A stretch of DNA of 64,000 nt, taken from Crossaster papposus (lineage: Eukaryota; Echinodermata; Asteroidea; Velatida; Solasteridae). The first letter of the stretch is position 1. Each line of letters begins with the position of its first letter. The notes under the pieces were generated by a model. It had not been told where the DNA came from, did not search any database, and worked only from the letters and a program-made list of their open reading frames with translations. Both the position numbers and the translations under genes were made by a program. The stretch lies in contig JBAIAA010000746.1 of the NCBI GenBank assembly GCA_037893245.1, forward strand, positions 248,001 through 312,000, read 5' to 3'. Below are positions 18,046 through 62,800 of this stretch, one piece after another.

Positions 18046-18100
18046 AGTGTTTTAAAGACACGGGAATTTCACGGACAAGTTCTCAACAGAAGTGTCAGCC

Positions 18101-35899: not shown

Positions 35900-38800
35900 C
35901 TGCAAAATTAGAAAAAATCATTAACCCTTTTCTTTACAAATGTCGAGTTTAACCCTAACTCTCTTCAATCCTCCTAAATCCTCATTGCATATTTGGAGGA
36001 TTTTTGAGGGTTGAGGATGAATGGCAAAAAGTGACAGGTAATTTTGGAGGATGCAATGGGTCAAGGTCGGAGGCCATACCCAGCATTCTTGATGTTCAGC
36101 CATGCATCATTATGCTCAATACCACCAACACTTCTTCTAAATGTCATTGGCACCGACTCAACCCATAGCATTGATTGAATGTGGATTTTGGAGGATTGAG
36201 GCAGTCGTTACCCCTCTACTGAACGAATGCCAGAAATAACCGATGATTTTGGAGGATTGAGGATGAATTCCATTTTTATATACTGGCAATATGAGGATTT
36301 ATACACCAAAAACAATGTCTATCTCACCCGATCGGGTCGGTTCACGCATTTGGCAGTATCGCATCGGCAGTTGTCCGAGCAGGGCTGCACACCTTTGACG
36401 CAACTGCACAGTCGAGACTTGCAGAATCCTCGACAACCGCAACCCGCCTAGGACAATTAAGACCAGAATACAATTAAAACTGCTGCTAACTGGAAACTGG
36501 CTGGAATGACGTAAGCCCCAGTCCCACTGAAGCCGGATATGCTACAGATCGCTCCGAATGGCCCCGGTTGAAACAGACGTTTGATCCGGGGTCATCCGGG
36601 GTGGACCGGGAAGGCAATCGAAAAAAAAGTGACATGTTCCCCGGTCCTACTACGGTTATACTACGGTCCGTTTGACTACGGTTTCGCCACGGATCATCCC
36701 GGTTCAAGCCTGTTTTTCCCTCATGACCCCGGATGGTCACGGATGGTTCACTACGGTTCCGCCACGGTTTCACTACGGATGCGCCACGGTTCATCCCGGA
36801 TGTGCCACGGTTCACCCCGGATGACCCCGGATACACTACGGTTCATCCCGGAAAAAACGTAGTGAATCCGTGGTGACACCGTAGTGAATCCGTGGTGAAC
36901 CGTAGTGTATCCGGGGTCATCCGTAGTGGAACCGTAGTGGAACCGTGTATGAACCAACTCCCGTTTCATCCCGGATAAACACGGTTACACTACGGTTACG
37001 CTACAGTTTATCCCGGATACACTACGGATCATCAAGGTCGCACTACGGTTTCACTACGGATCTCCACCGCCGCCTCTCCCTTCCCGGATGGCCCCGGATC
37101 ACCCCGGATGCTAGATGTTAATCCGGGGTGACGCTCGACTTCCCGGACGTACTACGGATGTCCCCGGATGGTCCCGGATGGTCCCGGATTGGCTACGGTT
37201 TATCACGGTTTGACTACGGTTCCACTCCCGGATGACCCCGGATATGAACCGTAGTGCATCCGGGGTGATCCGTAGCGTATCCGGCTTTCGGTGGAACTGG
37301 GGCTTTAACCAGTTCGCGCCGGGATTATTTTAACATCACTGAGCTGAGGCACAGGATAATTTTAAACTAAACTTGATCCGAGGCGGGTTCAGGCTGATGG
37401 TACCAGAAAACACACCCAGGCATTTCTGGCCTTGATCGTGATGTGTTTATGCGTCATGCGTTTTTAATCTGGGAAAAACTTTGCGTGTATATACTAGTTA
37501 AACTATACAAATCAAGTAGATAAAGAGGGCCTGATATTTTTTCTTAACCAGTTCGCGCCGGAGAGCATATATACATGTACACGCAAAAGTTTTTAGAGAT
37601 TCAAAGTGGATGACGCATAAACACGCAACAAGCAAGGTAGGAAATGTCTGTCAGCAGTGAGCAAGGCCGGAAATGTTATGGTTGTGCTTTCCGATACTAT
37701 CGGTCTGAACCCGCCTTGATTCAAGTTTTGTTGAAAATAATCCCACGCCTCGGTGAATGTTACAATAATCCCGGCGCGAACTGGAATAACAAGATCTTTT
37801 TCAGAGGCTGAATTACTGTGTACACGAACTAAACAGGATATACATTGTATAATTTTTACAGGGTTGGGAGGATAAACATAAAGGAGGGATAACAGGAGGG
37901 TATACCCAGCAAGATACGGGACCAAGGGACTCCCCCTAATAGTCCCCCTAATAGTGCCGGGCCGACACGCTATCGAAAAGTTCCGACATGCTATAATTCC
38001 TCCGATACGCTATCGATACGCTTTAAAAATATTAACTTATAATTTTTTTTTATAACGATTTCTCTGTGTTAAATTGTGGATCAATTATTTGTTTTCATAT
38101 TGTAACAAAACATTGTGCAGCGCGATGCCATACGTCATAAGTCAGCTTACCAAATCACGCCGAAGTCGTCACCAACACAGCAAAACGATTACGATCGGTG
38201 TGTGGTTACAAGCAAGCAAGTTGCCCAACTCGACATGTACGTACATGTACATGTACATCAACACGCGCGCTGCCTCACACAACACCCCCCGATACATCTT
38301 TGACATAACAGATAATGCACATGGCCATGTGGGTGCAGGTTGGCTGCATGTCGTGAATCAGGTTACCACTGAAAATCGGCCAAGCACCAGTCAAAATCTG
38401 GGATTTTTTTCATGGGCGCTGTTGTTGCGCTGTGCCGGCGATTTGGCATGGTTTGAGAGAGCGGGGGAAAGGGACTCGGGAAGGGGAGGGGGTTGGGAAG
38501 GGGAGGGGGTTGGGGCGGACGGGAGCAATTTTTAATGGGAACATTTTATTTTTCTAAATAGATCCAAAACAGAGAATCCTTAAAAAAAGGAGGTTTTAGG
38601 GAGGATGTCAATTCTATCTATACCACAGGGACAAAAAGGCGGACGGGGATGATGGGTTGAGCATTTTGTTCTACCGAGGCCCAATTAAATAAAATAAAAC
38701 ACCAAAACAAAATTAAAATTAGTACTCTGAGTCTGTGTGTTTTCTTAGTAACTGATTAACACTCATTTTGTAAAACCATCCCTGTAATTTCAAAAAAAAA

Positions 38801-41800
38801 AAAAAAAAAAAAATAATAATAATTTTACAATAAAACCACTGATGACCAACTGAAAATTTTGTTGTTTATTTGTATTTATTTACCTACAGATTTGTTATCA
38901 CAAAAAAAAGAGTCACAAAATATTATGTGGACTAACTTATAATAAGGCAGTTTCTGCATTGGGTTTAAAATAATTCAGATGAATTTATAGGGTTACCAAC
39001 TTCTCTGAGTGGCCTAGATTGCACCAGAGAGCATCTACGGCTTCAAAATTTTCCGGGGGCCTTAAGCGGGACCCGGACCCCACGCCGTAAAGGCTTCGCG
39101 CTTCGCGCTCGCAAATTTCACGTTTCAGAAATGCCCCTACCCTAAACAATTTTCCTAGCTAGAACCCTGTCCCCATACCTATACACTCTCTAGACTATTG
39201 TAACCTAAAGCACCCCCTCCCTAAAAACCTAACAAGAGTTCCTGAGAAACCACAACATTCTGCAAGCACAATGACCACCACAAAGGAGGGGTTCTCTCTG
39301 TCCCTTTTCTTGTTTCATATGCAGAAGGGAATGGAAGAATCAACAAAAGGAAGATTTGGCCAAGATGGAATAAAATAGTGCAAGGGGGTGAATGGGGGTA
39401 CATACCTGGGTGGAAGACAGACAAAGGAAGGGATAAAACCACAAGGGAAAGAAAGGGGAGGGACCTGGGTAGAGATCAAAGTGAAGAACTGACAAAGGAG
39501 CATTACGTCCTAGAAGGTAGGATACACCATTTGAAGATATCAACATGTTTTACTACCGAATTATTAAGAAATATCCCACTTATTTGAAAGTAAATAATGA
39601 TTCTATTTAAAGGATGGTTGTGTGAATGTTTATATTCTACTTTGAAATGATCTTTCCGATGAACATCTTTTAGTTCAAAATGCGTTTCTGTAGACTAATT
39701 GTGCAATTCCAGGACAGAGTGCCACTCTAACACCTTAAAGCAGAGCTCACTGTGCTTCTATCTTGCTGTATACTCACTGATGTGGCAGTATTATAGTGCG
39801 GCTCTTTATGAACAAGCTCAAAAAGAATTTGAGATATATAATCGTTTTTTTTTTACGGATACCCGTGTTTTTGTAATCGGGTACCAGGTTTCCAAACTAC
39901 CCGTAAACGCACACCCTTCGGTAACACAATCTCTGTTGAGTTGTGCTATTAAAGGGATCGTATACGTTTGGTAATTGGAACCCACTGTTTGTTTCAATCC
40001 TATATAGTTATAGATATATATACCATAAAACTAACCTGTCAAAATTTCATTTCAAAAGGTGGTAAGGATTTTGAGATATTACCGAAAATCTGGAGCGGTT
40101 ATGTCCACGCAGGAAGAATAATCTGCATTGGAACACACAATCTGAGAAACGTCACTGCAGTAACGCTTCTCAGATTCAAATTTTTAGGGATAAGAAATTA
40201 TATTTTTTTTCCATAACCGCAGTACTTCGAAGTGAAAAGTTTCTAAAAATGCATTATGCTATCCACAGCTGCTGTACTTCTTACCAAGTAAGTTTTTGTT
40301 GCCATTAATTTTTGGAGTAATTACCAAACGTATACGATCCTTTTAAACCCCAGCAACCAAGTAAGTTTTTATTGCCATTAATTTTTGGAGTAATTACCAA
40401 ACGTATTCGATCCCTTTAAATCCTAACAGTCTTCAATCGTTTACCTGTTAGAGGATTAAGGACTGTTAGGGTTAAATTCACATGATGTCACCCTTTGAGG
40501 AACTTGAATATAATAACCGACGCAACTCACTTTGTCCAGAGATCTTTTCTTATTATCCTTGGCTACGACAGACGACCGTTTACGCTTGCCCAAGGGCGTC
40601 ATGTGCCAATCCGAATCATTGCCCGTTATGTCCAACTCACTCTCCGATTCAAAGTATTCATCCACCGTGTACCGTTCCACGGGTTTTCTCTGCACACAAA
40701 AATATAAAAAGTAGAAGAATTATTAAAGTTAGATTATTCAGTGCGGAAATTCGGTACCCTCTGGAGACCTGAACATAATGTGTATAATGGAGACAAAACG
40801 TCTCCGGAGGGTAAATTTCTATAGATGAATAGGTCTCCACTGAGAATTTCACGAATTAGATTTTTGGATTGTACTCAAATTACTCAAAAACTAGGATTAG
40901 GATGTGGGTTAGGGTTAGTGTTAGGGTATAATATAGGGTATATTGGGTCGAAATTTCAACCCAGGAAAAAAATTATGGTTAAAATGGGAGCATTTTGAAA
41001 AACGTGCTCGACTTTCTAACCATTTTGTACACGAGAACAAAGCCATGTCTCCACAGTGATACAAAAATGCGAATACATGTTTCTAAATTCGTTACCCTGT
41101 GGAAACCTGGGGCCAATTTCATAAAACATGTAAGCACAAAAAATTGCTTAGCGCAAAAAAGTCTTGCTCAGTAAAAACAGCTTATCTGCCAAAACTTCAC
41201 GTGCTTTTCATTCAAAGCAAAAAACAGCTGAATACCATTTACAAACAAAAAAACATCTGCGGAAATGTTTTTTTCCAAGGAAGAATTTTCATGCTAAGCA
41301 TTAGCAAATTCCTAGTGCTTACACGTTTTATGAAATTGGCCCTGATGACAATGGGGGCAATGGGAGTGAAAAGTTCTTCACAGGTTAATTTTCATAGGTG
41401 AAAAGGTCACCACAAGGTTTTCACAAAAAAAACATTTAGATTTTACTCCAAAACTAGGGTTAGGATTAGGTTTTGGGTTATAGTATAATATAGGGTGTAT
41501 TTGGTCGAAATTTCAACCCAGGAAATTAATTCTGGTTGAAATAGAAGCATTTTAAAAACAGTTTTCGACAGTCCACAAATTTGTGTACATGAGAACAAAG
41601 ATGTCTCCACAAGAATACAAATTTTGGGATATGTGGCAAACTTGGCCTTTGTCTTGGGTGCCATGGTCGACTATAAAACACATGTCCTACTCCACTAGTG
41701 GTCAGCAACTGTAAAATTGAAATCGTTCATGGAAAATTCGAGTCGGGTAGGCGTAGTGGTTCTTTCCTCGCCTTCCACCACTATGACCCGGGTTCGAATC

Positions 41801-44800
41801 CAGCCTGGGCCAATATGTGGATTGGGTTTTCAGTCCTTGCCTGACTCCGTGGGTTTTCCCCAGGATATTCTTCTGGGGTTTTCCTCCCACCTCTAAAACT
41901 GTATTTTCTTCTCATTGTTTTCTCTCTACAGGTTTCTTCAGGCTTTTGAGGGATCCTTGGTTTCATTACCAGAAATATATAATAATAATAATAAAAAAAT
42001 GCCTTTTCAAAGTAAATGCCACTGTATAGCGTGCAAAACTGCCATGCTAATTACTCTTCTGCGGCACTAATACAAACAAGAATTTGGAAATTTCGAAAAA
42101 CTTGTCACGCTTCTGAATTCAGGCAAAGTTGAACCGATTTAAACTCTGCTAATTATCCCACAGAGGTCTGGGGCCAATTTCATGGAACTGCTAAGCACAA
42201 ACAAATTGCTTAGCATAACATTTCTTCCTTGGCAAAAAAACCAAAACCAAATGTTGGATGTGACTGGTATGCAGCTGGGTTTTGCTTTAATAGCATGAAA
42301 AGCACATGGAAAATTGGCTGGTACATGTAACTGTCAGCAGGACTTTTTGTGGTAAGCAAATGTTTGTGCTTAGCAGCACCATGAAATTGACCACCGAGTC
42401 GGGATTGGGATCCAGCGCCACTCTAGTGGGACCAATGCCCCCTACGTCGGTTTGAAGCAGCTAGTGTTGGTATTTTTAAGATTCCTTCGCAAATACCTGT
42501 TTGACGGGCCTTTTCCTGGGAAGTTTCCAGGGCGATGGCTCGGGGGATGATCCGGGGGAGACCAGCGTGGGCATCAGGGACTGCTTGCGACCCGAATAGC
42601 TGACTATCGTCAGTTGCTGTCGACAAACCAAATTGAAACAAACAAATAAACAAATGTTTGTGTTTCTTAATAGCATTTTCAAATAAACTACAAATGTAAT
42701 CTGATTACTGCTGGGCAATAATGCGAGTACAAGTTCTACTCGCAAGACGAACCATTAATCTTATAGAACATTGTGAAGAAAATCCCAGATGTTTTAATTT
42801 CTTAAGAATATTTTTATGTTTCCATGTTGGTGGATGCCGCCCAGATTTCAGTGCGAATTGCAGATTTAATGTATTATTTGTGTTTAATCCACTTTAGTTA
42901 TTTGTAAGATATAACATTCATTCTCGAAGACTGATCAACAACACGTCTTCACTCTTCTATATAATAAATCTTCAAAACGAGATCTGGATTGCCGAATGCC
43001 TTTTTTCTATACTCGGCTCGAATTTGAAGGGCCACATGTACTAACCTGCTTCAATCTTTCTGCTCAGAAATCTGTCAACTACTCCTGAGTAATTTCCTTG
43101 CGAAAACTCGAGTACAAAAATCCACTACTCGCCCAGCACTTCATTATAATATATTTTTTAATCTGAACAAAAGTTAGTGGGTTTCGAACTTGCGACCTTC
43201 GGATTACCATTCCGGTGTTCTACCAACTGAGCTATCCAGCCATATTTGTCAATATCTTAGTCAGAAGCCATCAACCTGTAATTGCCATAAAAAACGGAGG
43301 TTGCAGGTTCAAGTCCCGCTCCTGTCAATTTCTTAACTAAAAAAAGAAAAATATATTAAAATGAACCTAGTAAGTTTCCTCGCATTTTCTTCAAATGTTG
43401 TATTAAAAAACAAAGCTGTATCCTCTCTCAGTGATCCCCGTTTGCTATTTCCCAGGGTTGCAACATTGCTAATGTCCCGACTGGAGCAGTGGCAGAACCA
43501 GCGACCTCCATAGTGCCGTTCCGGTGCAGTCCACCAACTGAGCTTGTCCAGCCCTGTGTTGGCAGTTCGCCAAATGTTGTTCAAATTTCCAAAAAAAGCA
43601 TTTACTGCACCTAGTCACTTTCCCTTTTGGTTCATTTGAAGAAAAAAAGCCGTGTCCTATTTGAATGATCCCCGTTTGTTATTTACCAGGTCAATTAAAC
43701 GTTACTAATGTTGCTTAAAGGGGCACATTGCTTGAAATCTCTGAAAATTGTATGTTTTAGATTGTTTACTTATCCTATTTCAAACATCTGGTTGAAAGAA
43801 AATCAAGCTAGTGTCTTACAGTTCCCCGAAAAAAGACGGGAAAAAACCCCCGTTTTTTGACGCGGCGGACATTTGGGGTTATCTGTAGACGCATTTCCGG
43901 CCGCCATGATGAGCTGTATCTCGTGTAATCAGACTGGTGCCAAAAATTGTGCATTGAATACATGACCGATATCGCACTGGGAATTGAGGTTCCATACCAC
44001 TGTAGCATCTAAATAAAACCTAGACATGACAGTCGTCGTTTTTAGTGCCTTTAATATTGATTCGCGTATAGAACACAGGTGTGATGCGTGCACAAGAGTA
44101 CGCATGCTTGCATTATTACGCGTAAAATAAAATTCAAACTGTGTGTTCAGAGAACAATAACCTGTGTCTAGATTTTATTAGATGTCTATGGTGTCTGCGA
44201 GGTACAATGTAGTAGGCATGAGTATTTGACTGGAAATACGACTAGTGAACACGGTCAATAATTTTTTAGGGTCAACAATTTAGTTCTACAAAATTGTGGG
44301 CTATTTGTCACAAAATTTCACCAAAAAACAGGCAATTTAAAAGGAATAGTTGTGTGAATCTTTGTATTCTTCTTTAAAAGAAAACTTTCTAAACTTTCCA
44401 AACTTAAACATAAAAATGCCTGATTCAAAACAATGTGCCCCTTCAAGTATTGTGACTTTGGAAGTGATTCCTGGCCACATGGCAATTACGAGTGGATGGC
44501 TTCTGACAAACACCTCATTTCAGGAGTCACCAACTACTGCACCCGATTTCACTAAACTCTTCGTAACTTACGATGGATTGCAGCCCTGCGACGCGTCGCA
44601 GCAGTGAAGCGTCGTGAAATCCATTTCACGAAACACGTTGTACGTGCGACGCATCGTAGGTGCATTTATAGCACAAAACAGTGACTGTTGTACCTATTCA
44701 TCGCACAGTAAATAGCCGTCTCATATTCAGCAAAGAGTCGTTGAATCTCTTCTCGGAAAGCTTAACAAATGTTAGTCACAATGGCTGATGTACCGTATGA

Positions 44801-47800
44801 TGCAGTTTCAACAAAAAAACAAGCTTGCTGTGGACCTCTAGCTAATTTGAAATTTCAAGTGCACTATTCAAGGTTTATTCATATGACTACGATAAACTTC
44901 TTCACATTGCACTGAGTATTCTAGTATCGTTTATTTTATTTTTATGGCGTAAAACTGGCTATTAAAAAAAGCATCTTATTTTACGACGCCCCAAAGACAC
45001 GTTGTAACTTACGACGTGTTTCATACCGTTGTCAAGGTAGTTGCGATGTGTTCAGATCAAGGCATCTCAAGTTTCGTGAAATGGATTGTACGACGCGTTG
45101 CGAGATGCGACGAGTTACTCTTTGTAACTCGAGTTGCGACGCGTTGCAACTAGTGCTGGGACTCAAAACCGAATATTCGGTTATTTGAATGTGCTTCCAC
45201 AAACCGGTTTGGAATTTGGAAACCGAATATTCGAAAAAAAAAGAAAAAAAAAAAAGGGAATGCTCTTTTTAGGATTTCTGGGCAGAAAATAAAAAAATGT
45301 TGTTCAGTTTGGAATTCTGATTTGAATTGGTTCCGTGGACGATCGCTCAAGCGCGGCAAAGTTAATGAGCAAGGCTGGCTGTGCGCCATTGTCATCGATT
45401 CAATGGTTACGTGAATAAACACGAGCCACTAGATAAACTCATGAATACAGTCAGCTGGTACGCGGAAAGACGTTCTGTTTGAAGTAGCTGATAGCACGTA
45501 CTGGAGAACGCAACTTCCATGTCACTTAATCCATTAAAATCACTTTTATAAAAATAAATTGAAAAAAAATAAAATAAAAAAAATAAAAAAATAATACATT
45601 TTTGGATTTTGTAAACCGATTAACGAATTCGGAGGATCGATTATTCGATATTTTCAAATTCGGTTATTCGGTTTTGAAAACCTCCGATTTGTCCCAGCAC
45701 TAGTTGCAACGTTTAGTGAAATTGGGGCAGGACTGATAGGTCAGTTGGTCGAGTCCCGGAGCGGCAATCCGGAGGTCTGATCTCTATAAGGATACCATGT
45801 TGAAATCTCCCTGCCTATTATTATTACCTGATGCAGTTCTTCGTTCTCCATGACTGTCTCTTGCAGCTGCTCATGTAGGGTGCTAAGTTCTCGAATCTGG
45901 TTATCCTGAAAGAAAAAAACACCCCAAAAACATGCGAAACAGTGACCATTTTTTATTTTAGCACCGTAATACAATTGTAGGTTCCGATTGTACAATGTCA
46001 GAGTACCATGAGACCATCCAGTTTCCCTGTGACCGGCGCCCACCATTGCAGTAGGCAAGTGTTTGGTAGACAACCATGAGCCTGATTAAGCAGTTCGCGC
46101 CGGAATTATTTGAACATCACCGAGCCGACGCACAGGATTATTCTTAAGGAAACTCTATACAAAGCGGGTTCAGGCCAATAGTGCCGGGAAGCACACCCAC
46201 GCATTTCCGGCCTTGCTCGCTGCTGACAGACATTTCCAGCCTTGCTCGTGACGTGTTTATGCGTCATCTGTTTTGAATCTGGGGAAAACTTTGCGTTTAT
46301 ATACGTCATCCGGCGCATAAAGGCCGTATTACCTTAAATACTGTTTGATGTGCTTCCATCAGACATTACATTAATAAGTACCTGTTTAAAATGTGCATTT
46401 ATTGACAAATTTCTCTTGGCACAAAAACTGGCTGAACAGCATTTGTTGTGGCTGTTTTTGAATTAGAATATTCCATGCTCTTTATCCCTAACCCTAGCTG
46501 CTTAATCCAATAGGATCCAACCAGTTAACATTTCCGTTGGAATCTGTTGGATTTAGCAGGCAAGTCATCTTATTCGGGAATGCATTAAGAATCTCATTCT
46601 GTTGGGTTACCAAGGTTACTGGTATAATATCACCAAGTAGGACTCTGTTCAACCCAGACCTTTGGAAAAAGGCCTTTTATTCATACAAAAATTAATAACC
46701 TTCATATATTTCTGAACAAATAATTGAAAAAAATAATCTGTTTTGAGGTAAATGCTGGACAGCGGCCGTGTCCGCGCCACGCTAATCTGTCCGGAATGCT
46801 GTTGTCAGCTGTATGTGCAATGCCGTAGTACACAGCCTGCGTGATGGGTGTTTGTTTAGGTCCATTGAAGGAAGTATAAACCAGTGGTAATTGCTTGAAT
46901 TATCATGAATGAGTAGATTTGGGGGGTTGTATTTTATAGTAAATATCGTTTAACTGAGCTGTCCGAAGTTTTACGATCATGGATGATGCCGAGAAAAGCA
47001 CGAAAAACAGCAGGTTTTTTCAACCGGCGTCGAGCAGTTTTTCTTATGTTATCGTTATCTTATGTTATCGCGAATTTTTCATTATAAAATTCTAATTCTC
47101 GCACTTCGCTTACCGTCATGCGAGCCGCCATTTTGTTCCGGTTTATCGGTACATATGAGATATTGTGACTGCACCATCAGTACGCGAAGCCCGATCGATA
47201 GCGGCCCTGCACGCGCAAGAAATGCAATTGAACCCTTTTGTGTACGGCATAGTGTGTACATAATGTGTACTATGTGAAAGTGAGCTCAAAATCATCAAAA
47301 TCAAGTCGATATTCTGCACAGAAATACAATGCATGTACTCGCAATAGTCGGGCGCCGTACAACATACGTATGCATAATGTAGTTGGCCGCGTCAAGGTAG
47401 GACACCAGTGCGAACAACATGCAATAAAGCGATGTGCATTGAGGTGCAGACAGTACGTCATAATTTCCCGGATGAGGCGGGAAATTTGAACAATATGGAC
47501 GCGCCCTTGTACTTCTGAATGGCAAGAAATCGTGAATATAATAGGCGCGCAAGTCGTTCTCGACAACAAATCAAAACAAATTCCCTGCAGAGTCAGTATG
47601 TTACCATATATTACTAGGTAAAATATTATTGAGCCTGAAATTTCCCTTTAATACCGGCATCAAGAAGTTCAAGTTCTTCACTAACCTGGAACTTGATTCG
47701 CTTCTGCAACTCATCATTCGCGTTGTCACTACAAGGCGCTGTCTCCTCCTTCTGGTCTCTTGCCTGAGATAGCTGTGTCAGTAGATACAGCACCTATGAG

Positions 47801-50800
47801 GCCAAAGAAAAAAAACCAAACATACATGGATAGTCCAAAGCTATCTGCTATAGATCTAAATGTATAGATTTAAAATTTGTTTGGATGTTCAGGTTGAAAT
47901 GTGGATGAGCTGTTGGTGATTAGGTGCTAAAAAAACGCACGTGTCCAATTTCTAAACATCGATGTTCAATGGCTGAACACTATTCATCCTCGCTACAGAC
48001 AGTTTCTGCAGTGTAGGCCAGGCAATTAACCAAACATAGGCAACTAGCTAGGCTATCGTTGTCCCTAAGACAGCTAAACCGAACCGACCTGAAAACTGCA
48101 AGAGCAAGTGCAAAAACGAAATCAACCCAACCCGACTGAAATAATAGAAAAAGAAAGAAAGACCCGACCCGAAGTCAGTTTAGGGTCGGGTCATTTTTGG
48201 TTTTCAGTCGGGTTAGTTTTGGTTCTGTGTCGGGTTAGTTTTGGTTCTGTGTCGGGTCAGTTTTGGTTTTGCGTCGGGTCAGTTTTGTGTCGTTTTGGCT
48301 TTGTCGGGTCAGTTTTGGTTTTGTGTCGGGTCAGTTTTGGTTTTGCGTCGGGTCAGTTTTGTGTCGTTTTGGCTTTGTCGGGTCAGTTTTGGTTTTGTGT
48401 CGGGTCAGTTTTGGTTTTGTGTCAGGTCAGTTTTGGTTTTGTGTCGGGTCAGTTTTGGTTTTGTGTCGGGTCAGTTTTGGTTTTCAGTCGGGTTAGTTTT
48501 GGTTTTGTGTCGAGTCAGTTTTGGTTTTGTGTCGTTTTGGTTTTGTGTCGTTTTGGTTTTGTGTCGGGTCAGTTTTGGTTTTCAGTCGGGTTAGTTTTGG
48601 TTCTGTGTCGGGCCAGTTTTGGTTTTGCGTCGGGCCAGTTTTGTGTCGTTTTGGCTTTGTCGGGTCAGTTTTGGTTTTGTGTCGGGTCAGTTTTGGTTTT
48701 GTGTCGGGTCAGTTTTGGTTTTCAGTCGGGTTAGTTTTGGTTTTGTGTCGAGTCAGTTTTGGTTTTGTGTCGTTTTGGTTTTGCGTCGTTTTGGTTTTGT
48801 GTCGTTTTGGTTTTGTGTCGGGTCAGTTTTGGTTTTGTGTCAGGTCAGTTTTGGTTTTGTGTCGGGTCAGTTTTGGTTTTGTGTCGGGTCAGTTTTGGTT
48901 TTCAGTCGGGTCAGTTTTGGTTTTGTGTCGGGTCAGTTTTGGTTTTGTGTCGGGTCAGTTTTGGTTTTGTGTCGGGTCAGTTTTGGTTTTCAGTCGGGTC
49001 AGTTTTGGTTTTGTGTCGGGTCAGTTTTGGTTTTGTGTCGGGTCAGTTTTGGTTTTCAGTCGGGTTAGTTTTGGTTTTGTGTCGAGTCAGTTTTGGTTTT
49101 GTGTCGTTTTGGTTTTGTGTCGTTTTGGTTTTGTGTCGGGTCAGTTTTGGTTTTGTGTCAGGTCAGTTTTGGTTTTGTGTCGGGTCAGTTTTGGTTTTGT
49201 GTTAGGTCAGTTTTGGTTTTGTGTCGGGTCAGTTTTGTGTCGTTTTGGCTTTGTCGGGTCAGTTTTGGTTTTGTGTCGGGTCAGTTTTTTGTCGAGTCAG
49301 TTTTGGTTTCGGTTCTGGTTTGCCTACCTTATCCTCATGAGTTCGCTGCATGTTTGTAACCTCCTTCTCCTGGTCACCTTTCAGCTCCAGCATCTCTTCT
49401 TCCAGCCTGTCCGCTTCTGCCACCGTCTCCTGGTGGGACTCCTGCAGGTCACTCAGCTGGCTCTGCACCGTGCTGGTGCTCACCTTGGCTGCCACGCACT
49501 GCATGACGGCGCAAACAAGATTCAAGAAACCAGTCGACATATTGTCAGTATTTATTAAGTATGCGCATGCATACAATGCTTAGGAAATGGGGGCGCCCTG
49601 TGAAATTATGCCCGGCAATCAACTTGTTCATAGAGCTAAATGTTGCAAAGACTAAAGGAGATGATCATTGCTGTTTTGTTATCGATGGGACGGAGGTAAA
49701 AAGGACATCTTGGTTTAAATTTTTAGGTATGTTTATTTCAAATTCTTTGGGATGGGTTGAACACGTTGATTACTATTTGAAGAAGGCCCAGCAGCGGTTG
49801 TATTTTCTTTGTCGTATTGTCTTTGCCTTCGGCTCGGGCATTAACATGTCCAGGGCCCATGAGCCAGTTATAAACATACTTGTTTAAAAGTGGCCAACCA
49901 CATATTTATTCTCTTAATAATATCTCGTTTTTATTTATAATGCACCATGTACAATCAGTCACGGCTGCTGTCGGTTTCTGAATCATGTAACTTCCCTCGT
50001 AATTCTGATTGGTCAACGTAATGATTGCGTTCGTTGTAATCAAAGTGATATCCCGCGTGCCTTTCAAGAGACAGCGGATCCGGTCAAATATGATAAAAAA
50101 AAAAATTAAAAAAAAAATCTAATATGAGACCTGCTTCAACGAAACACGAACAAGGTCGCACAATGTGTTTTACTACAACGAACTGGTGAAGTCATTTCGG
50201 GGTAGATTTTACCATTTGGAGTTTTTTTTTCTTCTCAATAACAAACTAATAATCTACAATCTCCCCAAATTTGAACATTATCCATCACCCAATTTTAGTC
50301 AATTTTCTACAACAATTGTGTATAGAAATAATACGCTTTTCTGAACAATAGCGTTTTATCTCATAATCAGGCTGTCAGGGTTTTATCACTAAATCCTTCC
50401 CCGAGGGGAGATACATGTAGGGTGAGGGTAAATAATGTAAAAATGATACATCATTTTAAAGCTAAGAACCCTTAACTAGTCCGCACCGGAGAACGTACAC
50501 GCAAAGTTTTTTCCATATACAAAACGGATGACGCATAAACACGTCACGAGCAAGGCCGGAAATGTCTGTCAGCAGCGAGCAAGGCCGGAAATGCGTGGAT
50601 GTGCTTCCCGGTACCAACTGCCTGAACCCGCCTCGGATCGAGTTTTGTACAAAATAATACTGCTTCGGCTTGGTGATGTTAAAATAATTCAGGCGCAAAC
50701 TGGTTAAGATGTTTAAAGTAAGTTTTCTCACAAACAAGTTTTGTGAAACCCATGACTTTCTAAAAAGTATTTATCACAAAACCCCCAAGTGTTATGTACC

Positions 50801-53800
50801 ATTGGAAAGCCCCCTTTCTCAAGAATTTGAAAATACTAGTATCTCAATTTTCAATATTTCCGACTTTACTCTCATTTTGTGGTGACAGGTCACAAATGGG
50901 TGCGAACTGGTTAAAAGAATTTTAAAATAAATTGTCAACTTTGTCTGGGTTTTGTGGGAGCTGGTCACATGTTTGATTTCCAGGCGGTTGTCTAGTGTAC
51001 AGTCAGATCGGATTTTGAGCAGACACTGATCCGTAAGTCCGATGGATAAGCCGGCAAAACAGGTACCTACAGGTGAGCCTAAGGCTAGACTTGTTTCCAG
51101 AAGTTCTTTGCACTTACCGTCTGCAGCAGCCATTTGAGTCCACATTTAGCCTCTACCATGCTGGTAATCTCATTCCATCGATTCTTGCCCTTCTCCTCTG
51201 AAAAAGAGATCATTTGAGAAAATGTTAACATTTCATCACCACATTGTTTATTGACTTGGCGGAGGTCCCCAGTTGTGGGGCAGATAGGGACAAATATTTC
51301 GGGGAAATTGTTTAAAGGTATTTACTACCAAATTATTAAGAAACCTCTTACTTATTTGAAAGTAAATAATGTTTTAGGCATCTAGCAAAATGAATGAACG
51401 ATCTAGATATCCTGTAATTGTTCAAAAAAATGTGTCGGAAAAAAACAATAACAACATAAAAGCCACTGCTTGACGCCTGCGGCCTGTTAAAAAAAAACCG
51501 AACACCATTTTTCTTGCTTTTTTCTCGGCATCCATGATTGTAAAATATATTTACCACGATATTTACCAATGGTGCATCCTACCTTTAACTTGTTTTGATT
51601 TTTTTTTACTGAAAGGCAATCACTTGTTAAACATACTTGGTTAAAACCGGTCAACCATATTGACCGGTTTTAACCAAGTATGTTTAACAAGTGATCCTCA
51701 GAACACGAGTGTCGCTTTTTTCCAGCAGTCGATCCCTTTGTTTCGTGTTCTTAAAAAGTCACATTTTGTGCATGTTAAACGACTACCTCAAATGAGGTAT
51801 TTCCATACAAGGGTCACTGCATCTAAGTTTCATCAAAATTCATCAAAGCATGTAAAAGTTAATACATTTTTTCAAAAACTTAACCTGAAACTTGAACATA
51901 TGAACAATAACCTCTAATGACCACTACATGATCTTTGACCTCGGTAATCTGATAAATAATTGTGTCTTTCCACCCAAGGGTCACTGCATCCAAGTTTCAT
52001 CAAAATCCATAAAAGCATTGTACAAGTTACATTTTTTTCTTAAAAACTTATTAACCAGATCGCGCCGGATGACGTATATAAATACAAACATTTCCCCAAA
52101 ATCAAAACGGATGACGCATAAACACGCCAAGTTCAAGTTCGGAAATGTATGTCAGCAGCGCGCAAGGCCGGAAATGCGTGGGTGTGCTTCCCGACACTAT
52201 CAGCCTGAACCCGCTTCGGTTCAAGTTTCGTTAAAAATAATCGCGAACTGGTTAAACCTGAAACTTTAATACACCCACAGTCATACAGTATTTAGGACTT
52301 AATTAGTCCCCCAAAACTACGTTTAGGCGACACAAAAAAAGAATTGGCTCTTGGGCCTAGACATTGTTAATGTTAAATCCAGCCCCCGATTTCACTAAAC
52401 GTTGAAACGCGTCGTAACTCCAGTTACGACATGCAACGCATTGCATCTCGCCGTTTTTTTATAGCCTGTTTTATGCCGCAACAATTAAATAAAAGGAACT
52501 AGAATACCGAGACAATAAGTTAGTAGTTTTACGGACTCGGACTTAGGTACTTGGACTGGACCCAGTACTCGGTCTTGAATGTACTCTTACTCAATGATTT
52601 GGACTCGGACAACTCACTAGTGTACTTGGACTAGGCCTGGGACTCGGCCCCAAAAGTACTCGGGATACTCTGTATTCAGATTTCAGGGCTCAACTCCCAC
52701 ACTGTCATACAGAATTGAACACTGGTAAGTGTCTCCCAAAACGTTGTTTAGTCGACACAGAAACCTCCCTGATTCCTGGATGAAAAATCTGTACCTTGAT
52801 CGGCATCCACAATCTTCTGTTGTAGGTCGCTGATCTGGGCGTTCCTGAGCTCCAGTTCGCCCTGTAACTCTTTGATGCGTTTGTTGGCGTCTCGGTTGTG
52901 TACGTTAATAGCTTTGGTCGGACTTGCAAATTTCTGAAGTAAAAAAAAAGAAGCTAATTACGCTAGAGCTGTGCTGTAAATTTTATTCACATGTTCGATC
53001 ATCCACAGCTTAGGTCTTAAACAATTATTGTGTTGTCCACTGACCAACCGATCAAAATTATTATTTGTAAAATATAAATTACAGCGACTGAAGTAGAGTC
53101 AAGGAACAAAAATACAAAACAGCATTTTTTTCTTTTCTTCAGCTTACACAACACAGCACTGAAATTGATTAGGACAAGCAACAGCTAGGATCGATTTTAC
53201 CAATGCTAAAATCAATCTTATAGAAAAAGTAACTAATCGTAACTTGCAATAGATCCAATGCAAGTTAGAATGAGTTTGATTGATCTTATTAAGATTGATC
53301 ATAGTTTTTGTGAAATCGGCCCTGCAGAAATGTTGTGATCAATTGCCCATTATGCAGTGAGGCGGGTGGTAATGTTACCCTTTGAGGCGAGTGGTAATGT
53401 TACCCTTTGAGGCGAGTGGTAACGTTACCCTTTGAGGCGAGTGGTAACGTTACCCTTTGAGGCGAGTGGTAATGTTACCTTTTGAGGCGAGTGGTAATGT
53501 TACCTTTTGAGGCGAGTGGTAATGTTACCCTTTGAGGCGAGTGGTAATGTTACCTTTTGAGGCGAGTGGTAATGTTACCTTTTGAGGCGAGTGGTAATGT
53601 TACCTTTTGAGGCGAGTGGTAACGTTACCTTTTGAGGCGAGTGGTAACGTTACCTTTTGTGGCGAGTGGTAATGTTACCTTTTGTGGCGAGTGGTAATGT
53701 TACCTTTTGAGGCGAGTGGTAATGTTACCTTTTGAGGCGAGTGGTAATGTTACCTTTTGAGGCGAGTGGTAATGTTACCTTTTGAGGCGAGTGGTAATGT

Positions 53801-56800
53801 TACCTTTTGAGGCGAGTGGTAATGTTACCTTTTGAGGCGAGTGGTAATGTTACCTTTTGAGGCGAGTGGTAATGTTACCTTTTGAGGCGAGTGGTAATGT
53901 TACCCTTTGAGGCGAGTGGTAATGTTACCCTTTGTGGCGAGTGGTAATGTTACCTTTTGTGGCGAGTGGTAATGTTACCTTTTGAGGCGAGTGGTAATGT
54001 TACCTTTTGAGGCGAGTGGTAATGTTACCCTTTGAGGCGAGTGGTAATGTTACCTTTTGAGGCGAGTGGTAATGTTACCTTTTGTGGCGAGTGGTAATGT
54101 TACCTTTTGTGGCGAGTGGTAATGTTACCTTTTGTGGCGAGTGGTAATGTTACCTTTTGAGGCGAGTGGTAATGTTACCTTTTGAGGCGAGTGGTAATGT
54201 TACCTTTTGAGACGAGTGGTAATGTTACCTTTTGAGGCGGCTGGTCCTCGTTCTCCTGTTGTAGTTGACGCAGCTGTTGGGACAGGGTCTTGCGGTCAGT
54301 CAGAAGGGAGCCCAGATGACGCTTGGCCTCGTTGACACTGACCATCACCTCAAGCTCATGGTCAAGCCAGCTCTGGAGAAGAAAAAAAATATCAACAACA
54401 ACCGCTATCAAAAATTATAATGAATGTTTGTGAGTGTGAAAACAATAATGTCATGAGGTGATAGATAAAATGTTCTATTCCGTTTTATACAACGCCTGAA
54501 TAAATCCTCGCTATCCAATTGGTCAGAGCGTGGCCGTGCACCGTTGAATGGAACCACTGAATATAACTTTTTTGTGCTTTGAAACGTACGTCGTTTTCTC
54601 GATACATAAACGAACACGTAAACACGTGTATTTCAGAGAGGAATGCGTGCAAATCTGCCGTATTTCGCATCAACATTTAAAATTGCCTGCTGAACCAGCA
54701 GAGATGTGAGTAGTACAGTCTAAAAGCGTACCTTTTCATCTTTCTAACAAATGAAAAATGTTGACTTCAACTTTCCCGAAACAGTCAGCGTCACTTAAAA
54801 CGTACAGGGGCTTTCGAAAAAGTTCAAGATTCATACCTCATTTCACAAGGCTAACTAATAACTTTAAATCTGAAATTATCATTAAAAAGTTTTACTCACA
54901 GTTCAATTTTATCCTGAAACTGCCACTTAAGAAATTTTATGTTGGTTTTTCGAGGGGCACTACCAAACTGTTGTTAACCTGCTCGCGCCGGAGGACGTAT
55001 ATACAGGCATTTTTTTTCCCAGATTCGAAACGGATGACGCATAAACACGTCATGAGCAAAGCCAGGAATGTCTGTCAGCAGCGAGCAAGACTGGAAATGC
55101 GTGGGTGTGCTTTCCGGTATCATCAATCTGAACCCGCCTCAGATCAGGTTTCGTTACAAAAAATCGGTGATGTTATAATAATCTCCGGGCGAACTGGTTA
55201 AAACCTCGCAAATTCTCGAGCGGCCGGGACTGCCAACTCGCTGCAAATAAAACCCGACTGTACACTTCATTATGGGCAACACTGTGCTCTCACTCAAAAA
55301 GATGTAATTTCAAAAGTATACCACCTATTTGAGTCCACTATAGCTTATTTTAAAGCTTAAAATATTTCGACTTTAGTCTGGTTTTTGGGTGGTGGGTCAC
55401 ATTTGAGATAGTGCTGCCCTCTGACCTTGATTCTCTTGGCCGCTCCCACCATGTTCTTCCCGTCTGGCTTGTCTTCGGAGCGTTTCTGCTGCACAGCTTT
55501 CTGTTTCTCCACGGCCTCCTTCAGCCGTTTGTTGGCGACCGCAGCCTGTGGGTAAAACAAAAAGATTAAATGAGTAAAAATAAAAATAATCATGCTTATA
55601 TGTGACCTGTCACCACAAAATGGGAGTAAAGTCAATGTGATTTGGAGATAAGGCCATCCAAAGTCAAAATATGAAGCGGTGGTCAATTTTGAGATTTTGC
55701 GTAATTTGGAAAGCCTAAGTTCTCCTCTACATATTCCTATTTTTTGGGTGCAATCAGATGATCGAAAACCTCTTAATTTTTGTGATTTTGAGTAGTGTTT
55801 GGGTAGTTAGTGTTTGGATTAAAAGTCCATCAGTGGTCTAATTAACACGGTAATTAAATATGCAAATTAGGTCTTCGTAACTGTCCCACGTTTTCGAAAT
55901 TTTGAGATTTCGTTGATTCTTCAATAGTTTGGATGTGTGGGAAGTTTCAAGAAGAAATAATTACTAGTTGTTATGCTCAACCGAACCTTACTTGTCCTGT
56001 TTGGCAATATTTTGTGTGTTTTGTTTAGGATGTTTATTAGCAAGTTTTCTCACAAACACGTTTTGTGAAACCCGTGACTTTCTTGAGCGCTGTCAAATGT
56101 ATTTATCGCAAAACCCCCAGGTGTTATATACATGTACCATTGGATAGCTCTCTCAAGAAATTGAAAATACCAATATCTCAATTTTTCTGACTTTACTCTC
56201 ATATTGTGGTGACAGGTCACATATAGCGCTTTTCATCGTATCAACGATCTCAAAGCGCTTTACAATTATTACCCCGTTCATCAGGCCCTGGACCACGCGG
56301 CAACCGTTATAGGTGCTTAAAGGTAGTATACACCATTGGTCATTGCTTGAATTATCATGAATGAGTAGATTTGGAGGGTTGTATTTTATAGTAAATATCG
56401 TTTAACTGAGCTGTCCGAAGTTTTACAATCATGGATGCCGAGGAAAGCACGAAAAACAGCGGTTTGTTACAACCGGCGTCGAGCAGTTATTCTTATGTTA
56501 TCTTTGTTTTTTCGGAATAATTACAGGATATCTAGCGCAATCATTTTGCTGGATGACTAGAATCATTATTTACTTTCAGATGAGTAATATATTTCTTAAT
56601 AATTTGGTAGTAAATATTTTTGATATCTGCAAATGGTGTATACATCCTACCTTTAAATGACCTTGACCCCCACAGGTAACCCATTTATACTACTGGGTGA
56701 ATATAGGCAATTGTAGCTAAGTGTCTTGCCCAGGAGCACAAACACCATGTTCCTGGCAGGGTTCGGACCCATGCACATGAGTCAAACGCTGTAACCATTG

Positions 56801-59800
56801 GTAGAGTATAGAGTATACCATTTTGCAGCAATCCAAACAAGTAACCAATCAAATTGTTGTTGAAAAGCTAACTTGTTTTAAGATAGCTCATTGGTATATA
56901 GCACCCAAACAGCAATCCGAAGGTCGCAGGTTCAAGTCCTGCTCCAGTCAATTTCTTTGATCAATTTTCACAATAGTATTAACTGCACCTAGTCAGTTTC
57001 CCTTGTTGTATTAAAAAAAGCTGTATCCTCTTTGAGTAATCCCTGTTTGCTTCATATACAGGGTGGTAAGAAAAAACAAAAAAACAAGGAACGGCCTATT
57101 TCCAGTATCCTCAGACCATAAAATGTAGTTTGGATAGACGGGGAATCCTTCTAGATGAAAAATTGATGGGGGGGGGGGGGGGGGGGGGGGGGGTGGGGGA
57201 TGTGTCAGTTAAACAGTTGATCAACACCAACTTGGTTCCAAAAAAGGCCCCTAAAATGCAAACCTCTGGACCGCATCGGGTGATCTTGGTATAATTGTTC
57301 ATCTAGAAAGATTCCCCGTCTATCCAAACTAGTTTTTCTGGTCGGAGGGTACTAGAATTAGGCTGGTTTTTTTTACCATCCTGTATTATCTCAATGCAGG
57401 TCGATCAGTGCAGAAATGTTGAAAAGCCATGAATCTAGGACTGAGAAACATTTTAAATTTTGTTAATACATTTTTTCTTGAAAATTTCTCGAATCTCCTT
57501 AGACTTTGTACACAACCGCTGAAGTAGCGTCAGGATACCAGGGCCCAATTCCATAAAAGCATTCTAACTTAGTATATTACTAGGTTTTAGCAAGATTCCA
57601 AATGCCTAGTTGGTTGCTTGCTAGCACTCAACTAAATCGCATTCCATAACACCATTTTATGAAATATTCTTACTAGTTGCTTGCTTGCAGCTTGCTAGAA
57701 TGGTGTGGGGTTTGCATAATCGCCAAAGTACATGGTCAGTTTGAGTTAACAATAGGGAAAGAGTTCAAATCAGGTCATGCTGTGGGTTGTATTGTCAATG
57801 CATTCCTCTGTACCCTATTTAGGGTATGTACATTTGTATCGGCCTAAGCACATGTTTCAGAAATGGCTAATTCAGAGGGTGTTTCAACTCCAAAAAGGGG
57901 AAAGAAGCCCAATTACTCGACTCAGGAAAATCTGTTCCAGAACGCTATGAGGAGTTTAAGGTTATCTTTGACTCTGCGCATAAGGATGTCAATACAAATT
58001 CCCAAAAGATAAAAGATTGAAAGTGACTTAGAATGGTGCTAAGGATTTAGACATACCCCAAACCTATTCTAATTTTAGCAAGCAACTAGAGATAGAAAGG
58101 AAGTTAGCAACCAACTAGGCTTAGAATGCTTTTATGGAATTGGCTCCAGGATACTACATTTTTTTCCATAAAATGTGTTCCTGAGAAACCATTCATTAAA
58201 CGGCGACATTTTTACCTCTTCCATCTTCCTGCGCAGGACGTTCTCCTGTTTCTGGTGTTTCGTCGTCATCTTGCTGACCTCGCACTCTCTCTTACGATCC
58301 TTGGCCTTGAGCTGTAAGACCTCTTTGTCCTTCTGGGCCTTCCACTGGCGGAACTTGTCTGATTCCTCCTTCATATTCTTCATCAGCCGCACTCTGGCCT
58401 GCTTCATTAACTACAAGCAAATACAAAATAAAAACGAGGTTGGCTCTCAAACCAAGAGTTTCGCCCACTCTCAAATTGTGATGCGATCAAGCAAAATCAG
58501 TCTGAAGTAGGCCTTGGTCATTTTGGGGATTTTTACATATTCTTTTGTAGCGTACTTCAGGCTCCATTTCAGTGAAAACCCCATGTGAACACGACCTTTG
58601 GTTACAAAATTACAACCATTTGAACACCAGCACGTAAAAAAAAAAGAAACTGAGAAAATTATGTTTTTGTATCACTTCCTTTCTGAATTTGGTTAAAAGA
58701 GTATTTTTATGTAAAAGATAAATATTTTCTCTTCTGTTTTTGTAAAAAAAGGCAATTTTGATTTTTCCACCCCTACGAACATATTTTGGCCCGATCTCAA
58801 AACTAGACTTGCCGAGTTCCGACTGATTTTGCTTGATCGCATCACAATTGACTTTTAATGACCTCTGACCTCGGTATGTGACCTTTAATATCATGCATCC
58901 TCACATGCAAGTTTCCATATTGAATCTATGACTCAAGTTTGCTTGCAATTGAATCTTAGGTTTTCAAATGAGACAAATTTATACAATTCCAGCTTTTTTT
59001 TGCAACTGGACTTCCAATGACCTTTGACATCGGTATGTGACCTTTAATATCATGCATCCTCACATGCAAGTTTCCATATTGAATCTATGACTCAAGTTTG
59101 CTTGCAATTGAATCTTAAGTTTTCAAATGAGACCAATTTATACAATTCCAGCTTCTTTTGCAACTTGACCTTAAATGTGACCTGTTCCAACGAAACCCGG
59201 ACAAAGTCGACATTTTAGTTTTTGCTTTTTTCAAATTCTCTAGGTTCTCAGCTTTAAAATGATGTATCATTTACATATGTACCCCCACCCTATCTTCCCT
59301 GGGGTCTGGATTTAGTGATAAAACCCTGACAACCTAATTATGAGATAAACAGCTTTGAAGTTCAGAAAAGCGTATTATTTCTATACACAAATGTTTCACA
59401 AAATAGACAAAAAAACACACTTCTGGTAGACGGATTTTGTTCAAATTTGAGAAGATTGTAGATTAATAGTGAGCGACTTAGGAAAACCTAAAACCTCAAA
59501 ATGGTAAAATCCATCCAGAAATGACTTCAGGAGTACATTGTGACAAAACACATTGTGCGACTTTGTCCGGGTTTCGTTGGAACAGGTCACAAATGATCTT
59601 TGAACTCACTACTTGACCTTTGACATGACAGGCCTTGCGCTAACTTTTTTTTTCTGGGTAGCCCACCGGGCTAGCAAACTGCAGATTTTACTAGCCCGTT
59701 TACATTTTTGCTAGCCCGTATGCACAATGCACAAAACTATTCGTTTGGCGCCCGCACGTACATGTACGTACCATTGACCTCTAGAGGTCAGTGGTACGTA

Positions 59801-62800
59801 CACGTATGTACATTCGTAGTTATGTACACGGAGCAGTTTTCGCTAGACTTTGTACGCCGGGCTAGTACTATTTCGAGGCCTGCATGAGCATCCTATAAAG
59901 GTTACAATAATTCATGCATGTTAGATTGCTATTAGACCTTACGTTTGCAGTTATAAAAATAACACATTTTTAAAAACTAACCAAAATGACACATGCATAC
60001 CGACGGACTACGTACACGAATGTACGTACACGAATGGTCCGATGGTCAGACGGACGAAATGATTACCTACAGAAATAGTAATGGAATGGGGCCTTTTCGA
60101 ATCCCTGGCTTTAAATAGGGCGATTCTAGACTCTTGACTATGACAACTCCATCCACACTATAATCCATGTTATAAATGCTTCAGAAACATTTATTGGATT
60201 GATATAAACCCAAAAGTTCAAATATTTTTATTTGCAGTCCTTGTTATTTGCTTCTCAGAATGTTGAATACAAAGCAAATGTATAGTCTTCTTTCTGAACT
60301 TCGTTCAGGCAAGCCCAAAACAAAACGGGCAATCGTGATTCCGATTCCAGGTTTGAAATAGATTCTTATCAATTCTGGCATGGAATCACCCAATCCTAGC
60401 GGATAACTTAGGCCGTGTCCGAAACGGCTTCCAGAGTTGCGGCTGCGTCCATTCTGAGCTTGCTCATGCACAGCTGTAATGGGCCAACACCTAGACAATA
60501 GCCATAGACACAACCTTTAGACGCGGACTCACCTGGATCTCCTTGTTGAGTTTGGTGACCGTCAGGTCGCTCTTCTCCTTAAACTTGAGCAGCTTGGATT
60601 GCTCCGTCATTTTCTTTTTCAGCTTGCCGATCTCCGTGCTGAGTTCCTGGAGACGCACTCGACGCTGCTCGCTCACTCTGCGACAAAAGACATTGTGATG
60701 AATTTACCAAGGAAGTGAAGAATACAATTTGAATTTTCAGCGATGGTGCAATAAACAAGTACGAAGGTTAAACCTCAAAACCTCAAGTGGTACGGTATAA
60801 TACTGCGATTTGATTGGTTTTCAGCTTTGTAAAGGTTCGCAGAGTTGAACATTGCTCAACTCGTGCGAAACTGCCTGCGAAGCGAATATGTTTCTGGATC
60901 CGAGGCGACATTTCGCTGCGAAGTTCGCAGCTAAGCAATTGCGAAGGCATGACGCCGTAAAATCCGCTTAAAGATAGGATACACCATTGGTAATTGCTTG
61001 AATTATCATGAATGGGTACGTTGATTTGGTGGGTTGTATTTTACAGTAAATATCATTTACCTGAACTGTCCGAAGTTTTACAATCATGGATACTGAGAAA
61101 AGCAACAAAAAAAAGCGTTCATTTTCAACCGGCGTTGGGCAGTGAGAGGGTTCTTAGGTTGTTCTTGTTTTTTTTAGATCGCCGTCCAGCGATCATGATT
61201 TTTTTCTTCATAAAATTCAATTTTTCGGAACAATTACAGGATATCTAGCGCAATCATTTTGCTGGATGTCTAGAATCATTATTTACTTGCAAATAAGTAA
61301 GAGATTTCTTAATAATTCTGCAGTATTTTTTTTTAGATATCTGCAAATGGTGTATCCTACCTTTTAAGTGCCATCAAAACTTTAGGTGACACAATAATAA
61401 TAATAATAATAATAATAATAATTCATTTTTAATATAGCGTTTTACATTAAAACATCTCAAAACGCTTTACAAAGTGTCACTTACAATTAAAAATATTAAA
61501 AATATGCTACCACACACTAAAAAACATAATACCTTTTAAAAAGAATAATGACCTTGACTGTAATTACTTACTTGTTGCTTGAGGTGTTGGACTTCGCTGC
61601 GTGTAGCGCCGAGGACAGGTTCTCTCTCTCCTTCTGCAAGGTGGATATTTCGCTCTCCAAGCTCTGCACGTTGTTCTAACAAAAAACAAAAAACATTTTT
61701 CGTTCTTTTAGGGGGGTATTATCTAGGTTTGCTTGTATTATCCAAGTTGTTATGGTTTGGTACCAAACCTGCCAAAACCTGCAGTTGGAGTTTGATGGGT
61801 TTTGGGGTAGTTAGGGTTGAAGCTCTTGATAGCATGGGTCATTCCATGAGGTTGGGACACAAAGTGAGGCATTTTGATACATTTCTAGTATTTTGCTATG
61901 TTGGAACATTAGTAGTAGGCAGAGGTTTGCTTGTACAATATATCTTGCAACATGACCAAAAGATGTTAAAGACACACGCATTCCCCTGTTACATCAGAGT
62001 ACTAAATTTGTGATGAAATGTCAAATATCTCAGAAAACTAATGTTTCAAATGTGACCTGTTCCAACGAAAACCGGACAAAGTCGACTTTTTAGTTTTTCA
62101 GATTTTGCTTTTTTTCAAATTCTCTAGGTTCTCAGCTTTAAAATGATGTATCATTTACATATGTACCCCCACCCTATCTTCCCTGGGGTCTGGATTTAGT
62201 GATAAAACCCTGACAACCTAATTATGAGATTTAAACAGCTTTGAAGTTCAGAAAAGCGTATTATTTCTATACACAAATGTTTCACAAAATTGACAAAAAA
62301 AAACACTTCTGGTAGACGGATTTTGTTCAAATTTGAGGAGATTGTAGATTAATAGTGAGTGACTTAGGAAAACCTAAAACCTCAAAATGGTAAAATCCAT
62401 CCAGAAATGACTTCAGGAGTACATTGTGACAAAACACATTGTGCGACTTTGTCCGGGTTTTGTTGGAACATGTCACAAATGGTACAAATCAATTTTGCCC
62501 TTTTCTGTCCAACATCCAAGACAAATATAAGGAATAAATCTTCAAATAATGTTGTTGACAGATGTTAAAAAAGGTAACAAAAGTCACACTTGGCATCCCA
62601 CAAAAGTATAAACACATTTCATGACTTTTCCAGGACTTCCCAGGACTAAAAAAGGACAATTTTCATGACATTTAACACCATTTTGCAGAAAAAGAAGCGT
62701 CCCATCCAAAATAACCTTTGCATGATCATGATTTTCATGACTTTTCCCATGACTTAACATTTCCCCAATTTTCCATGACTTTTCTGTGCGAACATGCGAG

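Follow-up and report, generated by a model that had tools for sequence, protein, structure and literature searches.

Tandem Copies of a Splice Donor at an Exon-Intron Junction of KIF4 in the Sea Star Crossaster papposus

The KIF4 Locus

The stretch of DNA analysed in this work (hereafter, the window) comprises 64,000 nucleotides of the genome of the sea star Crossaster papposus (assembly GCA_037893245.1, contig JBAIAA010000746.1, or C746, positions 248,001 to 312,000) and harbors, on the minus strand, the C-terminal part of a gene that we refer to as KIF4. One of its introns, intron f, opens with a minisatellite, each unit of which contains the junction between the preceding exon and the intron, including the 5' splice site (donor). 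The features discussed are listed in Table 1 (window positions unless a contig is given).

The KIF4 exons were located by tblastn with a human KIF4A sequence and then by their splice contexts. The first model consisted of 15 exons (63529 to 35501) with a frame of 751 residues; after comparison with the same sequence, the acceptor of exon i was shifted, giving the uninterrupted frame reported in Table 1. The 751-residue version retrieved the Pfam family PF25764 (KIF21A-like domain, E = 1.2e-50). The name KIF4 was kept in spite of this match because two parts of the gene match KIF4A: the motor-domain exons, which are found on the same contig beyond the upstream end of the window and share 47-83% identity with the human sequence, and a cysteine-rich piece close to the C-terminus. 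The NCBIfam search assigned no family, and probing PDB with exon f retrieved nothing convincing (three matches up to E 10, the best, 0.045, to a myocilin chain). At least ten further KIF4 exons are located upstream of the window; exon f, which had initially been numbered 6, is therefore the sixth exon in the window and not the sixth of the whole gene. Two of the upstream exons, u8 and u9, are out of phase, and at least one more exon is probably missing from the model.

Two other observations concern the upstream part of the gene. One KIF4 motor exon is present twice, its second and slightly different copy (C746:355761-355982) lying about 32 kb upstream of the first. Moreover, at one motor exon locus (L009:7493-7839) there are 12-bp arrays of TAAAC/GAAAC plus pyrimidines (15 and 11 occurrences in about 420 nt), which end 5 nt before the acceptor of the exon and form a ladder of branch-point-like units.

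Table 1. Location of the KIF4 features in the window and of the junction arrays in other kinesin genes of the assembly.
Feature	Location	Strand	Remarks
KIF4, C-terminal part	35501..63529	-	15 exons (a to o), 756 codons plus stop; tblastn, splice contexts
KIF4 exon f	54229..54372	-	144 nt, ends ...EDQPPQK; last 11 nt (54229-54239) are the exonic start of the array
KIF4 intron f	52934..54228	-	1295 nt, 871 of them array; in-frame first donor at 54228
KIF4 exon g	52795..52933	-	Phase 0 partner of the first donor
25-bp minisatellite	53358..54239	-	35.3 copies (TRF); AG or GG before GTAAC in each unit
Original donor junction of exon a	63321..63376	-	36 nt exon + 20 nt intron; source of the second mirage
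First downstream copy of exon a junction	63013..63068	-	Offset 308; 91% over 56 nt; donor 9-mer identical (GAGGTGGGT)
Second downstream copy of exon a junction	62810..62851	-	Offset 525; 93% over 42 nt; donor 9-mer identical
22-bp array, 5' end of KIF4 intron i	48178..49305	-	Roughly 1.1 kb; TRF; exon ends at 49328
145-bp array (L073)	C1238		8.3 units, each exon piece ending in a GTAAG donor
145-bp array (L074)	C1108		3.2 units; same gene as L073 or young copy
133-bp array (L075; also L040)	C17		8.0 units; six end in ATG/GTAAGT, last two decayed
126-bp array (L033 and L044, one array)	C893		6.6 units; 6 donors CAGGT[CT]AGT

Structure of the Donor Array

The analysis with Tandem Repeats Finder (TRF) revealed a period of 25, with 97% matches and no indels. 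The minus strand contains 35 GTAAC donors, from 54228 down to 53378, at a spacing of exactly 25 nt throughout, and every unit is made of 11 nt of exon-like and 14 nt of intron-like sequence with a GT donor. The array begins 11 nt before the end of exon f, and its units are repeats of that end and of the donor that follows it; the junction CTCAAAAG/GTAACATT (the slash marking the boundary) is the end of the exon itself. These data agree with the first-pass annotation, which had described about 35 repeats of a 25-bp unit carrying this junction, and they support its proposal that the array grew out of the donor; the start of the array is also the one given there, while its end lies at 54239 rather than at 54240.

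The donor 9-mers are poorly variable: AAG/GTAACA is found in 25 of the 35 units, including the first donor, and the others are AGG/GTAACA (6), AAG/GTAACG (2) and AGG/GTAACG (2). In the 34 copies behind the first one, variation is confined to four of the 25 positions (-9, -7, -2 and +6). The core of the unit is a near palindrome in 31 copies (GGTAACATTACC) and a perfect one in the remaining four (GGTAACGTTACC).

The assembly (1,023,315,904 bases in 1841 contigs) was searched for the exact consensus 25-mer, which was found 17 times, always inside the exon f array; these counts refer to exact matches, and absence elsewhere is no proof of rarity. Allowing up to three mismatches, 34 matches were found in the window, compared to none in 100 dinucleotide shuffles of it, and probing viral_contigs with the same 25-mer gave no match. 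The window does contain other local duplications of unknown origin, and the array might in principle derive from a mobile element or a satellite family, a fragment of which landed at the donor. Nevertheless, the exonic part of the unit coincides with the KIF4 reading frame, and no other place in the assembly yielded the exact 25-mer, so we regard this origin as extremely improbable. A dispersed repeat, likewise, is made unlikely by the exact search of the assembly together with the three-mismatch search of the window.

Reading Frame and Choice among the Donors

Splicing at the first donor would connect exons f and g in phase 0, and no other donor maintains the frame. Donors 1 to 7 were translated singly: donor 2 leads to a stop 51 nt past the true exon end, in exon g, donor 3 to a stop 231 nt past it, in exon h, and donors 4 to 7, as well as retention of the whole intron, to an intronic stop at nt 51. 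The same intron start is retained with each of donors 8 to 35, which must therefore also lead to the intronic stop. Thus, the earlier statement that only the first donor keeps the frame was borne out by computation for donors 2 to 7 and by this reasoning for the later ones; the stop predicted in the intron is indeed there, beginning at 51 nt and not at about 55.

Donor strength fails to single out the first donor, since 24 others share its 9-mer. The predicted folding of the exon plus the array hardly singles it out either, with a mean unpaired probability of 0.51 at the first donor and of 0.45-0.47 at 24 of the 34 others, 21 of which have 0.46-0.47; the remaining ten (0.02-0.35) all have either the perfect palindrome or a G at -2. 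A shielding of the later donors by RNA structure was considered and dropped: adjacent units are predicted to pair mutually, yet 24 of the 34 later donors are nearly as open as the first one, and ten are more closed.

In principle, later donors might be used often enough to matter, in which case transcripts with extra units and a premature stop would be degraded and the length of the array would tune the level of KIF4. This possibility is in keeping with the identity of the 9-mer in 25 of the 35 donors, with the conservation of GTAAC in all 35, with the similar predicted openness of most of them and with the stops to which the later donors lead; on the other hand, the published amphioxus genes are reported to splice regularly despite their copies (PMC3087553, PMC3902484). 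On balance, we consider a regulatory use of the later donors rather unlikely.

A different route would be recursive splicing, whose (ratchet) sites are characterized by juxtaposed AG/GT. If the first donor were spliced to the AG of any later copy, an identical donor would be restored, and the array would become shorter with no trace of the event. AG/GT is found at 27 of the 35 copies (AAAAG; the other eight read AAAGG/GT), and the stretch from -20 to -5 is 69% pyrimidine, a value that five of the window's 15 KIF4 acceptors also have. The acceptor context of the unit appears weak, however: position -3 is occupied by A, compared to C or T in 14 of the 15 KIF4 acceptors, and the longest pyrimidine run is of four residues, although four of the 15 acceptors are no better in this respect. 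Moreover, the products would be invisible in the mature mRNA. We judge this hypothesis highly unlikely.

Probable Growth of the Array

The distribution of the variants along the array is not uniform. Adjacent copies are identical in 16 of 33 pairs, compared to a mean of 10.2 in 10,000 shuffles (P = 0.006). Eight copies have a G at -2, and five of these are among the last seven; moreover, position -12 is occupied by C in both outermost copies, the first (exonic) and the last (partial), and by T in the 34 copies between them. The pattern resembles that of local slippage or unequal exchange, with the ends homogenised to a lesser degree, and is drawn from few changes. The ordered and clustered variants also argue against an inflation of the copy number by an assembly artefact, as does the finding that the other junction arrays of the same assembly (see below) have quite different units; such an artefact appears very improbable.

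Starting from what is directly observed (the array, its junction, the anatomy of the unit, the effects on the frame, the local clustering of the variants and the sister arrays in other genes), we can depict the following scenario:

i. A 25-bp segment extending from the last 11 nt of the exon over the 5' splice site into the first 14 nt of the intron would have been duplicated in tandem.

ii. The tandem copies would then have expanded, being partly homogenised by slippage or unequal exchange, and intron f would have come to open with 34 extra copies of its own donor.

iii. The spliceosome would most likely take the first, exon-proximal donor, which may be favoured since definition of the 144-nt exon would start from its acceptor and from upstream exonic signals; any later donor would lead to a premature stop and, presumably, to decay of the transcript.

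iv. The array would thereafter be close to neutral and free to vary in length.

Other Copied Junctions and Arrays in KIF4

The exon f junction is not the only one copied in this gene, the donor junction of exon a having two downstream copies (Table 1). If used as donors, these copies would lead to a stop 9 nt into the intron. The 22-bp array of intron i begins about 22 nt (according to one TRF row) or 39 nt (according to the main row) past the donor; its unit contains no GT donor, and no other GTA or GTG is present in the first 1180 nt of that intron. Overall, KIF4 and its upstream sequence harbor nine arrays of at least 100 bp, three of which have an edge within 39 nt of a splice boundary. 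A chance estimate for the two big arrays of the window lying near donors was discarded as post hoc.

Junction Arrays in Other Kinesin Genes

The survey of the kinesins retrieved at least 132 motor matches from the assembly, with 122 of 243 candidates scored, and several of these matches form ladders at constant spacing. Three arrays, one of them represented on two contigs (Table 1), carry copied exon ends with their donors. In the 145-bp arrays, the frame to the next exon is kept by the first of eight donors only in L073 and by the first of three only in L074. The two loci agree at 196 of 199 bases on the 3' side of the array and at 102 of 125 columns, with 17 gaps, on the 5' side, and their end units are the best matching (0.96 and 0.97). 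The pair, with eight and three units on two contigs, would thus represent either alleles or young paralogs. The 126-bp unit on C893 keeps the frame, and splicing at its second donor could lengthen the protein by 42 residues.

The flanks were checked for 30 of the 132 matches, several of which come from one gene and two of which are KIF4 motor-exon copies. Local repeats overlap the motor exon at three of these 30 loci (L033, L044 and L040) and at none of the other 27. In all five junction-copying arrays (KIF4 exon f, KIF4 exon a, the C1238/C1108 gene, C17 and C893), the copied splice site is the donor, perhaps because extra downstream donors are better tolerated than extra acceptors. This pattern would be expected if donor-side mirages (tandem repeats across exon-intron junctions) arose continuously and genome-wide in this echinoderm lineage, which would maintain a polymorphic reservoir of decoy donors and of incipient introns; the sample, however, is small and non-random, and in the amphioxus globin gene BflGb6 it is the acceptor side that is copied. 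A process of this extent therefore seems unlikely at present.

Comparison with Mirages and Related Systems

The first-pass annotation knew of no description of such copying of a working donor. This does not hold, since tandem repeats across exon-intron junctions, called mirages, were reported in amphioxus in 2002 and 2010. Mirages have been described in Adh3 and in the globin genes BflGb6 and BflGb9 (PMC3087553), to which PGBD5 and troponin C were later added (PMC3902484). The Adh3 units measure 10-72 bp, the Adh3 data and the reverse transcription PCR (RT-PCR) on the globins suggest that mirages leave regular splicing undisturbed, and in BflGb6 the terminal units escape homogenisation (PMC3087553); moreover, mirage length varies between haplotypes (PMC3087553, PMC3902484).

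The KIF4 array likewise consists of minisatellite-like units that extend across the exon-intron boundary and include the splice signal. Its unit falls within the range of Adh3, and the few changes seen at its ends might reflect an escape from homogenisation. It differs from the amphioxus cases in belonging to an echinoderm and not to a cephalochordate, in having 35 donors compared to the six and three units of BflGb6, and in copying the donor side, the acceptor side being the one copied in BflGb6.

Tandem repeats have also been linked to intron gain in the Cryptococcus gene CNN00420, for which replication slippage or unequal exchange was proposed, and in human variable internal tandem repeats (PMC2395259, PMC2812944). 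In these cases, as in KIF4, tandem copying puts extra splice signals inside a gene; however, new introns were formed there, whereas the KIF4 intron gains decoy donors, with no new exon seen. Most KIF4 units resemble recursive splice sites in the juxtaposed AG/GT, but their acceptor context appears weak.

Our limited search of the open-licence literature found no report of an echinoderm mirage, which does not show its absence from print. Altogether, the KIF4 array appears to be a long addition to a known kind of repeat, in an apparently new phylum for it.

Evaluation of the Proposed Origin

According to these data, it is very probable that the KIF4 array is a mirage-type minisatellite born by tandem duplication across the donor and tolerated since the exon-proximal donor is used. 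Several points weigh against this interpretation. The use of the first donor is presumed from the frame argument. Donor f is weak, ranking 11th among the 14 KIF4 donors of the window (with a matrix of human donor frequencies), and the first donor of L074 has the lowest score of its three (3.17, compared to 7.95 and 6.74); taken together, these values leave room for the use of later copies. Furthermore, no second KIF4 copy that could represent a second allele of the array was found in the assembly.

Finally, the KIF4 boundaries are not enriched in local copies. In a control on the gene, extended upstream by 30 kb, two of 48 splice boundaries had a local near copy (at least 17/24), compared to 131 of 1000 random gene positions; at a cut of 20/24, 84 of the 1000 random positions had a local copy. 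Thus, the array may have started without any help from the donor, and there is no sign that donors attract arrays; what distinguishes the donor arrays may be just that the copied donor is tolerated.

Other Contents of the Window and of the Assembly

Besides KIF4, the window contains a tRNA match (2733-2814; Rfam RF00005, 64.5 bits), a rhodopsin-family receptor in one open frame of 351 codons (18056-19111; PF00001, E = 6.9e-44) and a retroelement reverse transcriptase (24491-26020; PF00078, E = 7.8e-26). At 15034-15597 and 21770-22841, the frames of the plus and minus strands translate to almost identical peptides, which points to large inverted repeats.

The assembly is not pure, since a contig of 5.3 Mb (C8) carries bacterial COX1 and ABC transporter genes and represents a symbiont or a contaminant; among the PF00005 matches listed for the assembly, all lie on this contig. 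The COX1 search also retrieved the mitochondrial contig (C1841; 16,330 bp), whose COX1 reads best, as judged by eye, with table 9 (AAA Asn, ATA Ile, AGR Ser, TGA Trp). ND1 and ND2, recognised by eye, are on the strand opposite to COX1, and the interval from ND1 to COX1 holds a cluster of 13 of the 24 predicted tRNA genes. The code is that of echinoderms and, with the inverted ND1 and ND2, speaks against a lancelet such as amphioxus and for a starfish, a brittle star being less likely; a published asteroid mitogenome has a similar length (16,253 bp).

Significance

With its 35 donors at constant spacing, 25 of which share one 9-mer, the KIF4 ladder represents a natural experiment on the choice among near-identical 5' splice sites, from which the effect of position alone can be read. 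The junction arrays found in several kinesin genes of one echinoderm extend what was a curiosity of lancelets to another deuterostome phylum, where they are accessible to long-read RNA and population tests. They also bear on the gain of introns, as duplications of this kind have been proposed as its raw material (PMC3087553).

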